NCBI GenBank assembly: GCA_015056545.1
Contig: SVGE01000002.1
Span: forward strand, 124,575-184,888
Direction of reading: 5' to 3'
DNA: 60,314 nt
Origin: Clostridiales bacterium
GTDB lineage: Bacteria > Bacillota > Clostridia > TANB77 > SIG350
Position numbers and translations under genes: made by a program. Below the pieces are notes generated by a model. The model saw nothing but the letters and a program-made list of their open reading frames with translations. It made no database searches and was not told the DNA's origin. Positions 21,621-53,874 of this stretch are shown here, in pieces. Within the stretch, counting starts at the first letter, position 1; every line of letters starts with the position of its first letter.

Positions 21621-21749
21621 TTATGTAAATATAATTGTAAATATATGAAAAATATGGTATAATATATATGTATTATACTAGTTATAATATGAAGATTACT
21701 ATTTTAGTAGCTTCAAAATATCTTATTAAATTTTTTGGAGGTAAGAAAA

Positions 21750-22223
21750 ATGTTGTTCGAAACAAAAAAAGCAAAAAAGAAAAGAGAAGAGGCAGAGGCA
21801 GCAGCAGCAGCGATGCGGGAAGTGCAGATAATGGCGATAAAAGATATTGCTGAGTATTATATCCCGATATTTAAGAAATATATCAATTCTGATCCGGAAA
21901 CTGTAAACTGGACGGAAGCTTATCAATTAGCTAGGCGTATTAAAAATGCAATTTTTCAGCAGGCGGTTGGTTGCGAGGCGTTAGGTATTGAAACATATGA
22001 TATATCAAATGATGAGGATATTTATATTCGTAATTCAGAAATGTCAGTTTACAAAAAACAAGTGTCTGACTGGGATAGTATTCCTGAAAGCAATAAGCAG
22101 TATGCATATGCGAATTTCCAAAATATAAGCGAGTGGGATACATTTGCAGTTTCTCTTTTCTATGCCATGAGGACGTCTATTTATGGCATGAATACGTTTT
22201 TACAACGTATTCTCGAAAACTGA
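21750..22223 (+). CDS. Hypothetical protein with atypical codon use
   Basis: 157 residues from ATG 21750 (GGAGG 9 bases upstream). It opens with a charged alanine-rich helix (KKAKKKREEAEAAAAAMRE) and continues as a helical soluble domain rich in aromatic residues (DWDSIPESNKQYAYANF, LFYAMRTSIYGMNTFL). Codon use is clearly different from the surrounding genes: GCG, CGG, GGC and CGT are frequent in a genome that otherwise almost always uses AGA and A/T-ending codons. It has its own TATAAT box near 21657 and a GC-rich terminator. No family recognised; recent acquisition is likely. Confidence 0.7.
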   Translation: MLFETKKAKKKREEAEAAAAAMREVQIMAIKDIAEYYIPIFKKYINSDPETVNWTEAYQLARRIKNAIFQQAVGCEALGIETYDISNDEDIYIRNSEMSVYKKQVSDWDSIPESNKQYAYANFQNISEWDTFAVSLFYAMRTSIYGMNTFLQRILEN

Positions 22224-24661: not shown

Positions 24662-24666
24662 GTTTT

Positions 24667-24701
24667 AAAAGTGGATTACTCAAAATGAGTAATCCACTTT
24701 T
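24667..24701 (+). terminator. Intrinsic terminator after the ABC gene
   Basis: AAAAGTGGATTACTCA (24667-24682) and TGAGTAATCCACTTTT (24686-24701) form a perfect 16-base stem. Confidence 0.92.
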
Positions 24702-24794
24702 ACTTTAGTATTGATTATTATGTAAAATTTGTGTATAATAAATGAAATTTAATTTGTACTACCTAAAAAATTTTTTTGAAAAGGAGAAAATATT

Positions 24795-26006
24795 ATGCAA
24801 GATGGAGTAAGAAAACTATATCAAAATGAAGGTGAATTTGATAAACTGTTTTTCGATGTTCATGAGTTAATCGAAGAAGTTTTCCCAGATATCAAGTGTT
24901 ATATAATTGATGTAACAACTGTAAAGAATCTTATAAGGAGTTTTGTAGGAAAAGAAGATTTAGTAAAATTAGAAACTATTTTATCAAAAAGATATCCATT
25001 AGAGGGTAAGCCTATGAAAATATCCGATATATCAAGTACTTATTATTATTCTGAGGAAAAAATAAAACAAATACTTCAAAAAGTTGAAGATGAACTTGAA
25101 AAAGAAGAAAATAGAGTAAAACTTTTTAGAGCAGTAAATTTTGATATTCCTGAAAGATTTATAGATGGATGTATACCTGAGATATATGAATATATTATTC
25201 AAGATGTAGATGATTTTAAAAAGCATCTTAATAGATATCAATTTAAAGTATTGCAAAGATTAATTCTATATCCTAAAATAAAGAAATCTTTGGCTGTATA
25301 TCTATTTGAATATTTGGAAGATAGAAATGGTTATGCACTTAGAAAGTGTCCTATGTATCGGGATATATTGCAGGAGTTAAAAGTTGCAACACAGGGCGAA
25401 ATGCTGTTAAAGAAAAATGGAATATCCAATATTCTTGAGTTGATTTTAAAAGATAATATTTCAAATGATGTAAAAAAGTATTTCTTTGATGAATATAGTG
25501 AATATATAATTGCTTTACTTGCAAATTCAAAAGAAATTGTACAAATTCTTTTAAATTGTTATTATGATGATAATCAATTTAAAAAGTTTTGTACTCAAAA
25601 AGAAGAAAGAGATATATCACTAGCACCTATTGAAGAATTGGATATTTCAAAAAGTGCGTATAAACTTTTAAAATATTGGAATTTCAATTTTATTACTTCT
25701 ATTCCTAAATCCGAAAATGCAATACGGGCATCAATATATTGTAATCGCAGTATTGCAAGTGAAATTAAGGAAGCATTAATAAACTGGTATGAAAGAAATA
25801 AAATACCTTTTAAAGACAAAGATATTCTTATAAAAGATATTGATTTTTCTGTAAGAACATTTAATATTTTAAATAGAGCAGGATATGAAAGAATAACTGA
25901 TATACCTACAGATGTAAGTAAACTGCAATGTATATGGAATTGTGGACCGGTTGTTATTAATGAAATCGTAGAAAAATTAAAATCTTTTAATATAATTGTT
26001 AAATAA
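24795..26006 (+). CDS. Sigma-region-4-like HTH protein with two RNA polymerase alpha-CTD-like domains
   Basis: 403 residues, soluble. Residues ~60-103 read like sigma-70 region 4: LSKRYPLEGKPMKISDI then YYSEEKIKQILQKVEDEL, where sigma factors have V(S/T)RERIRQIE..AL..L. The C-terminus holds two helix-hairpin-helix units of the RpoA C-terminal type: ELDISKSAYKLLKYWNF (from ~280) and DIDFSVRTFNILNRAGY (from ~347), which follow the RpoA pattern (I)EELDLSVR..N.LKRAGI, the second ending WNCGPVVINEIVEKLKS like LG.KSLEEI..KL. Residues 110-270 are an unfamiliar helical middle. AAAGGAG lies upstream; own terminator. A transcription-related DNA or polymerase binder is inferred. Confidence 0.75.
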   Translation: MQDGVRKLYQNEGEFDKLFFDVHELIEEVFPDIKCYIIDVTTVKNLIRSFVGKEDLVKLETILSKRYPLEGKPMKISDISSTYYYSEEKIKQILQKVEDELEKEENRVKLFRAVNFDIPERFIDGCIPEIYEYIIQDVDDFKKHLNRYQFKVLQRLILYPKIKKSLAVYLFEYLEDRNGYALRKCPMYRDILQELKVATQGEMLLKKNGISNILELILKDNISNDVKKYFFDEYSEYIIALLANSKEIVQILLNCYYDDNQFKKFCTQKEERDISLAPIEELDISKSAYKLLKYWNFNFITSIPKSENAIRASIYCNRSIASEIKEALINWYERNKIPFKDKDILIKDIDFSVRTFNILNRAGYERITDIPTDVSKLQCIWNCGPVVINEIVEKLKSFNIIVK

Positions 26007-26012
26007 TATTTT

Positions 26013-26049
26013 ATGGTAGAAAAACAAAATTGTTTTTCTACCATATTTT
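26013..26049 (+). terminator. Intrinsic terminator after the 24795 gene
   Basis: ATGGTAGAAAAACAA (26013-26027) and TTGTTTTTCTACCAT (26030-26044), perfect stem, then a T-rich tail. Confidence 0.9.
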
Positions 26050-41285: not shown

Positions 41286-41984
41286 ATGTCTAGACGCAAA
41301 AAAAGAAACTTAATGGTGGTATCGGTTATACTGGTACTTACCCTGGGAATTGGTATGATTTTGTTATCTTATCAGCCCACAAAAAAATCTGCTAAGAAAG
41401 ATAATTCTGATGTGGCAGAAACTGAGTTAGTAGAAATAGAGTCTATTGAATCAGAAGATGATTTAGTGGATATCGAATCTGTTGATTCAGAGGAAGAGAC
41501 TTCTAAGGATGAAGAGAAATCTGATTCTGAAGAAGAGGAAAAGTCAGAAGATGAAGTTGAGGATAAAACCGAAACTAAGTCAGAAGACAAAGTAGCAACG
41601 GTTGTTGAGACTGTTACTGTAACTGAAACAGTTGTGGATGATACAGCAGTCAAAGCAGCACAGGAGGAGGCAAATTCGGCGAAAGCTGAAAATGCTAAGC
41701 TTAGAGAGGAAAATGATAGGCTTAAAGAAGAAAATGCTACTCTCAAAGCACAGCCTGAAGTAAAGGTAGAACCTGAAGTAAAGGCAGAGCCTGAAGTAAA
41801 GGTAGAACCTGAAGTGAAGGTAGAACCTGAAGTGAAGGCAGAACCTGAAGTGAAGGCAGAACCTCAAGAAGAGGTTAGCAGGCCTCCGGTAAGACCTAGA
41901 GTTAACAATAACTCTTCAACATCAAGTAATCGTTATTATGACGATGATGGTGAATATACCTCTAGTGGAATTCGTATTCGCTAA
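41286..41984 (+). CDS. Membrane-anchored acidic protein with EVK-P repeats
   Basis: 232 residues. A basic N-terminus (MSRRKKRN) and one transmembrane helix (~9-27) are followed by a highly acidic Ser/Glu/Asp stalk (~45-105), a short coiled coil (AKLREENDRLKEENATL) and six consecutive six-residue repeats PEVKVE/PEVKAE, ending in a polar Asn/Ser/Tyr tail. The layout suggests a stalk protein that spans the wall or links membrane and wall. Codon use (GCC, GTG, CTG, GGC) is unlike the neighbours. GGAAGGAG precedes the ATG and a terminator follows. Confidence 0.78.
   Translation: MSRRKKRNLMVVSVILVLTLGIGMILLSYQPTKKSAKKDNSDVAETELVEIESIESEDDLVDIESVDSEEETSKDEEKSDSEEEEKSEDEVEDKTETKSEDKVATVVETVTVTETVVDDTAVKAAQEEANSAKAENAKLREENDRLKEENATLKAQPEVKVEPEVKAEPEVKVEPEVKVEPEVKAEPEVKAEPQEEVSRPPVRPRVNNNSSTSSNRYYDDDGEYTSSGIRIR
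41754..41861 (+). repeat. Six tandem 18-base repeats
   Basis: Six copies of CCTGAAGTRAAGGYAGAR encode PEVKVE/PEVKAE inside the 41286 gene. Copies differ by 1-3 bases, mainly GTA/GCA. Copy number is likely variable by slippage. Confidence 0.92.
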
Positions 41985-53538: not shown

Positions 53539-53874
53539 ATGGATAAGAATATTCAAATAGGATTATTATATGAGTTTTATGGTAATCTACTTACTGAAAA
53601 ACAAGCGTATGTTATAAATTCATATTACAATGATGATTTATCATTATCTGAAATAGCTGATGAATTAGAAATAACTAGACAAGGAGTTAGGAAACATTTA
53701 ATTGAAGCTGAAAAGTTATTAAATAATTACGAAGAAAAATTAGGATTAATGAATAAATTTTTAGAAAATAAAAATGAATTAAAATACATATATGAAGAAT
53801 TAAATAAATTAAAAAATAAATATAATGATGAAAATATAAATATATTATCAGCTAGAATTAGCAAATTGATATAG
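53539..53874 (+). CDS. ylxM: YlxM-type putative HTH protein
   Basis: 111 residues. Sigma-region-4-like HTH: LLYEFYGNLLTEKQAYVINS then LSEIADELEITRQGVRKHL, the YlxM pattern; the C-terminus is lysine-rich. In Firmicutes ylxM is directly upstream of ffh, as here, and has a role in the SRP pathway. GAGGTG precedes the ATG; ffh follows 12 bases later. Confidence 0.92.
   Translation: MDKNIQIGLLYEFYGNLLTEKQAYVINSYYNDDLSLSEIADELEITRQGVRKHLIEAEKLLNNYEEKLGLMNKFLENKNELKYIYEELNKLKNKYNDENINILSARISKLI

Follow-up and report, generated by a model that had tools for sequence, protein, structure and literature searches.

Sigma region 4 (sigma4) and the C-terminal domain of the alpha subunit (alpha-CTD) are the promoter-touching pieces of bacterial RNA polymerase. 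Modules of both kinds have been described in BREX phage defence, in which PglW carries an alpha-CTD-like domain and BrxL a sigma-HTH-like domain (PMC12839542). Within the open-access literature, whose coverage is incomplete, we found no description of sigma4-alphaCTD fusions. The 60,314-nucleotide stretch of a Clostridiales contig analysed here (SVGE01000002.1; hereafter the window) encodes a protein which we regard as a real sigma4-alphaCTD hybrid, and proteins of this kind exist.

The gene and its domains

The source genome, a small one of a gut-type member of the Clostridia (1.45 Mb in 17 contigs, 99% complete, approximately 25% GC), encodes a normal RpoA separately (L002). The hybrid gene ( Table 1 ) is, judging from its flanking signals, a single-gene unit: the terminator of the upstream gene, a promoter-like site, a ribosome-binding site and a terminator of its own are all present, which fits the original prediction that it is monocistronic. 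Seven terminator-like sites were found in the window, where 0.4 were expected. The further proposal that the codons of the gene differ from the core is weakly supported: the deviation is modest (seventh most deviant of 52 window genes) and the GC content of 25.4% is ordinary, like that of the window. In two same-family genomes, valS and the small membrane ORF preceding it are conserved, and the hybrid gene does not lie beside them, upstream of valS, in those genomes.

Three other window genes may be mentioned here. A 162-aa ORF (21735-22223) with no Pfam match has a GC content of 36%, relative to approximately 25% in the window, and the most deviant codons of all window genes; it is possibly a recent arrival. 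The second most deviant is a 232-aa ORF (41286-41984, 39.5% GC), whose sole match is a weak, below-cut-off one to P5-ATPases. A YlxM/UPF0122-like protein (53539-53874) likewise carries a sigma4-type HTH.

Table 1. Positions of the hybrid gene, its domains and flanking signals in the window, and of partner genes at related loci.
Feature	Position	Strand	Basis
Terminator of upstream ABC-type gene	24666..24702	+	terminator-like hairpin scan
Promoter-like site TTGATT-17-TATAAT	24711..24739	+	10/12 consensus match; consensus match only
Ribosome-binding site AAAGGAG (putative)	24780..24786	+	sequence
Sigma4-alphaCTD1-alphaCTD2 hybrid gene	24795..26006	+	ORF, 403 aa, ATG start
Sigma-70 region-4-like HTH, residues 43-107	24921..25115	+	family profile, AF2 model
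Helical linker between sigma4 and CTD1, residues 116-270	25140..25604	+	low model confidence, pLDDT ~35-64
Alpha-CTD-like domain 1 (CTD1), degenerate, residues 271-330	25605..25784	+	family profile p 4.6e-7
Alpha-CTD domain 2 (CTD2), residues 341-402	25815..26000	+	Pfam PF03118, structure match
Bidirectional terminator-like hairpin 3' of hybrid gene	26012..26045	.	sequence
Partner genes (examples)	L046:7904-8263, L048:4674-5027, L086:3626-3979, L087:3315-3704, L095:6746-7126 and others		downstream of sigma4-alphaCTD genes

The protein was compared with Pfam and with family profiles built from 35 sigma4 domains and 47 CTD examples of its relatives. Against the Pfam sigma4 model it scores 13.9 bits (E 0.04), under the cut-off of 24.1. 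Despite this, the family profile reaches 20.6 bits (p 2.1e-8) over residues 43-107, a score exceeding those of all 20,000 shuffles of the protein (best shuffle 11.9 bits), and a divergent region 4 is therefore likely. In the alignment this stretch is in register with the relatives. The original prediction had read residues 78-101 as a sigma4 helix-turn-helix; the identity is upheld by the profiles, the domain order of the relatives and the structural model, while the proposed span covers the second half of the domain only. For both domain types the E. coli sequences, residue numbering and contact residues serve as the reference. By this numbering, sigma4 retains E585 and Q589, its recognition helix has E in place of R584 and K in place of R588, equivalents of K593 and L598 are present, and region 4.1 has a sigma4-like R-Y-P-L (the R-Y-x-L motif) at positions 562-565. 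Searches for Sigma70_r2/r3 returned no Pfam match in the protein up to E 10. With regions 2 and 3 not found and region 4 under the Pfam cut-off, classification as a sigma-70 family sigma factor was rejected.

CTD2 is the sole above-cut-off Pfam alpha-CTD in the protein (residues 342-396, E 2.7e-8, with 33.8 bits where the cut-off is 23.8) and matches the family CTD profile with a p of 2.4e-16. CTD1 is weak in Pfam alone (0.08) and was recovered with the family profile ( Table 1 ). The residues R265, N268, N294, G296 and E302 are kept in CTD2, where R354 is the equivalent of R265, as are acidic residues at 259 and 261, and valines at 298 and 299 mark the loss of K298/S299. CTD1 has lost the DNA-contact triad, with S, K and N at the R265, N268 and G296 positions. 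Among 54 CTD copies in the family, R265 is kept in 44, N268 in 40 and G296 in 46; L088 likewise combines a worn first CTD with an intact last one, a pattern that L087 and L104 show less cleanly. The original prediction of two alpha-CTD-type units is supported by profiles, relatives' domain order and model, with the first unit degenerate. NCBIfam RpoA models match the C-terminal end only, far below their cut-offs. The protein was rejected as an RpoA, having no alpha N-terminal dimerisation domain and matching RpoA models in its CTD stretches alone. No enzymatic domain is significant in Pfam or NCBIfam, and below-cut-off matches to GMP_PDE_delta and RWD were set aside.

An AlphaFold2 (AF2) model based on a 26-row family alignment has pLDDT values of ~84-98 over both CTDs and ~67-90 over sigma4, and residues ~116-270 are poorly predicted; the single-sequence model has a pLDDT of 39. 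Domain order was the criterion for picking the other alignment rows, so model and profile evidence are not wholly independent of each other. The domain order is sigma4-CTD1-CTD2, and the CTD fold is a predicted one. CTD2 matches the B. subtilis alpha-CTD (1z3e_B) in VIA-align with a Z of 11.6 and an rmsd of 1.5 across 65 residues, whereas the best matches of CTD1 there come from HhH domains of the RAD51 family, with Z values reaching 9.8. The VIA-align list is filled by CTD matches, and the absence of the sigma4 part from it says nothing against sigma4. Foldseek lists sigma-A region 4 structures among its best matches (6onu_H, TM by target 0.76, and 8cwr_B), without giving the aligned residues, and none of its matches to the model reaches E 0.001. 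The outcomes that would have refuted the original prediction, no structural match to sigma4 or alpha-CTD folds or a match to an unrelated HhH nuclease family, did not occur.

Relatives within and beyond the order

Searches of same-order genomes, GTDB contigs, IMG/VR, phages and plasmids yielded no full-length relative of the protein. Matches to its N-terminal part had E values of 0.0006-0.035, and the ones inspected were mostly unrelated ORFs; one, on G058:C17, is a sigma4-alphaCTD protein (L102). Relatives by architecture were found through alpha-CTDs outside RpoA, followed by an order-wide search with the middle and sigma4 region. Sigma4 followed by one to three alpha-CTDs in one ORF occurs at 27 other loci, in 24 of the 385 same-order genomes sampled (~6%), and the window protein has the sigma4-then-alphaCTD order that defines this family. 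Split-frame cases (L049 and L094) come in addition to the 27 loci.

An SF2 helicase profile matches nine sigma4-bearing loci (L046, L048, L086, L091, L094, L095, L096, L098 and L101), and the Pfam families ResIII, DEAD and Helicase_C were named in L046, L048 and L101. Helicase, sigma4 and alpha-CTD tails lie within one protein at L046:4717-7908, L048:5172-8150, L096:3689-6874 and L101:2964-6779; in profile scans the helicase parts of L046 and L048 resemble helicases of the RadD, type IV restriction and PbeA kinds. L049 opens with the same N-terminal residues as the helicase forms (MSIRLK..NVET) and has no helicase. Plasmid helicase relatives from Ruminococcus albus and Aneurinibacillus carry C-terminal HA repeats instead, and gave no sigma4, CTD or middle-domain match. 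Directly downstream of the sigma4-bearing gene at 21 of 31 loci, and hence not universally, lies a small partner gene. Its product usually has 115-130 aa and combines a basic, FFKKIF-like stretch with a C-terminal part that is charged; neither Pfam nor PHROG gave a family match for two examples. The sigma4-alphaCTD gene and this partner form an undescribed two-gene cassette. A separate 252-aa protein (L054:4018-4773) has three alpha-CTD-like units and no sigma4.

When window ORFs were compared with the profiles, no signal of helicase, middle domain or partner appeared in or near the hybrid gene. Of the middle and sigma4 profile, only the part from position 147 onwards, which is sigma4, aligns with the protein, and the best shuffle scores at least as well. 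A GGVFG-type middle domain was accordingly rejected, as the middle profile does not extend into the protein.

At E 1e-22, the middle and sigma4 family was confined to two same-order genomes among 391 genomes of the class. Extra alpha-CTDs were found in six other Clostridia genomes, where five proteins combine sigma4 and alpha-CTD in either order. Together with the 27 loci in the order, this recurrence makes an accidental pairing unlikely. L137 (231 aa) has sigma4 followed by a CTD, and at L141 the two lie in adjacent ORFs. In the large Clostridia proteins L139, L140, L142 and L143 the order is reversed, one or more alpha-CTDs preceding sigma4. Phages and plasmids yielded no copy of the hybrid gene. 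A viral origin was set aside, as IMG/VR yielded no relatives of the hybrid gene, L048, L096 or L137 in searches with peptide patterns that detect close relatives only. The protein matches no PADLOC model and was likewise not retained as a known anti-phage defence protein.

Possible roles

We infer, tentatively and with a probability of roughly 45%, that the protein is a stand-alone DNA-binding factor which employs promoter-reading modules to modulate promoter use. The original prediction proposed a transcription regulator, decoy or polymerase remodeller, and these are candidate roles. The factor would be non-enzymatic and composed of the two modules with which RNA polymerase reads promoters, with the sigma4-like HTH and CTD2 jointly binding an extended AT-rich promoter-like element in a -35/UP arrangement and the degenerate CTD1 serving as a spacer or protein-contact domain. 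By occupying a subset of promoters or element ends, or by bringing polymerase to them, it may modulate their use. The DNA target, the effect on polymerase and the regulatory role are those we infer for such a protein. In favour of the stand-alone factor we counted the profiles and shuffles, the AF2 model, the structure matches, R265/N268/G296 in CTD2, the recurrent pairing and the lack of an enzymatic domain. Canonical -35/UP binding is not assured, given the R584 to E and R588 to K changes in sigma4 and a CTD2 without K298/S299. Counted against it were the lack of any orthologue found and the fusion of the module to an SF2 helicase in relatives, an unusual feature for a promoter regulator. 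As relatives carry the module behind this helicase, a general DNA-docking role is a serious alternative, and the module may instead be a general DNA-docking tail.

The main rival develops this docking role, and derives the hybrid gene by reduction, possibly with decay or domestication, from a helicase-HA-middle-sigma4-alphaCTD accessory cassette of the order. The tail would dock the helicase on DNA for genome conflict, for defence or for the upkeep of mobile elements, and the hybrid gene would have lost its helicase, its middle domain and its partner. The domain order that the helicase-bearing forms share with the hybrid gene and the patchy distribution (24/385 genomes) agree with such a history, and PglW and BrxL offer precedents in phage defence (PMC12839542). 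L049 shows that helicase loss happens. The HA repeats which replace the sigma4/CTD tail in plasmid helicase relatives make the tail look like a swap zone for DNA-binding modules, and this swapping suggests a docking role. We nevertheless consider this derivation somewhat unlikely, as the hybrid gene and its surroundings bear no trace of the middle domain, helicase or partner, and its ORF is intact with its own promoter-like site and terminator. Also unlikely is a broader proposal that sigma4/alpha-CTD is a portable promoter-reading cassette detached from polymerase, reading a whole -35/UP arrangement. It would act alone, as in the hybrid gene, or direct helicases to promoters or to polymerase at initiation, within a genome-conflict system that is specific to the lineage and includes the small conserved partner.

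A role as an RNA-polymerase-binding decoy or co-factor is improbable. In it, sigma4 would occupy the beta-flap and the CTDs would mimic RpoA-CTD contacts, diverting or blocking holoenzyme with an effect like that of phage T4 gp33 or AsiA. The R-Y-P-L and L598 of sigma4 and the acidic residues of CTD2 at 259 and 261 would suit such contacts, but the R-Y-P-L motif is also structural, and the search for phage or plasmid copies was negative. A last reading has no promoter link: the protein would be an orphan with HTH and HhH parts that binds nucleic acids generically, in repair or in the nucleoid, or its gene would do nothing important. The RAD51-family matches of CTD1 and the lack of full-length relatives speak for it. 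This is also improbable, as CTD2 is specifically an alpha-CTD by profile and structure and the pairing with sigma4 recurs in the order.

If the stand-alone factor is the correct reading, one protein can carry both sigma4 and alpha-CTD promoter recognition, normally two halves of the holoenzyme, and would be a natural minimal tool for learning what these two contacts do without the rest of polymerase. It would also draw attention to a helicase-sigma4-alphaCTD cassette of gut Clostridia that is so far undescribed.

Comparison with known systems

The likeness to the RNA polymerase alpha-CTD (PF03118) lies in the CTD2 fold and in the R265/N268/G296/E302 equivalents. Unlike RpoA, the window protein is without an alpha N-terminal domain and has two CTD copies, of which the first is degenerate and the second has lost K298/S299. 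With sigma-70 region 4 (PF04545) it shares the HTH at residues 43-107, the R-Y-x-L motif and the K593/L598 equivalents; it differs from sigma-70 factors in being without region 2 or 3, in its changed R584 and R588, and in scoring below the Pfam cut-off. The BREX protein PglW resembles it in an alpha-CTD-like domain (PMC12839542), and MZA MzaA in a match of its models to the sigma4 portion of one relative, but both are large defence proteins with other domains. L137, a minimal protein from another Clostridia family, is similar in placing sigma4 before an alpha-CTD with no enzyme, and differs in its single CTD and its strong matches in both domains, the two regions at which the comparison was made. 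The uncharacterised same-order proteins L046, L048 and L096 also have sigma4 followed by alpha-CTDs; in them this arrangement, which the hybrid gene carries by itself, comes with an SF2 helicase and a GGVFG-type middle domain, and in most cases a small partner gene follows downstream.
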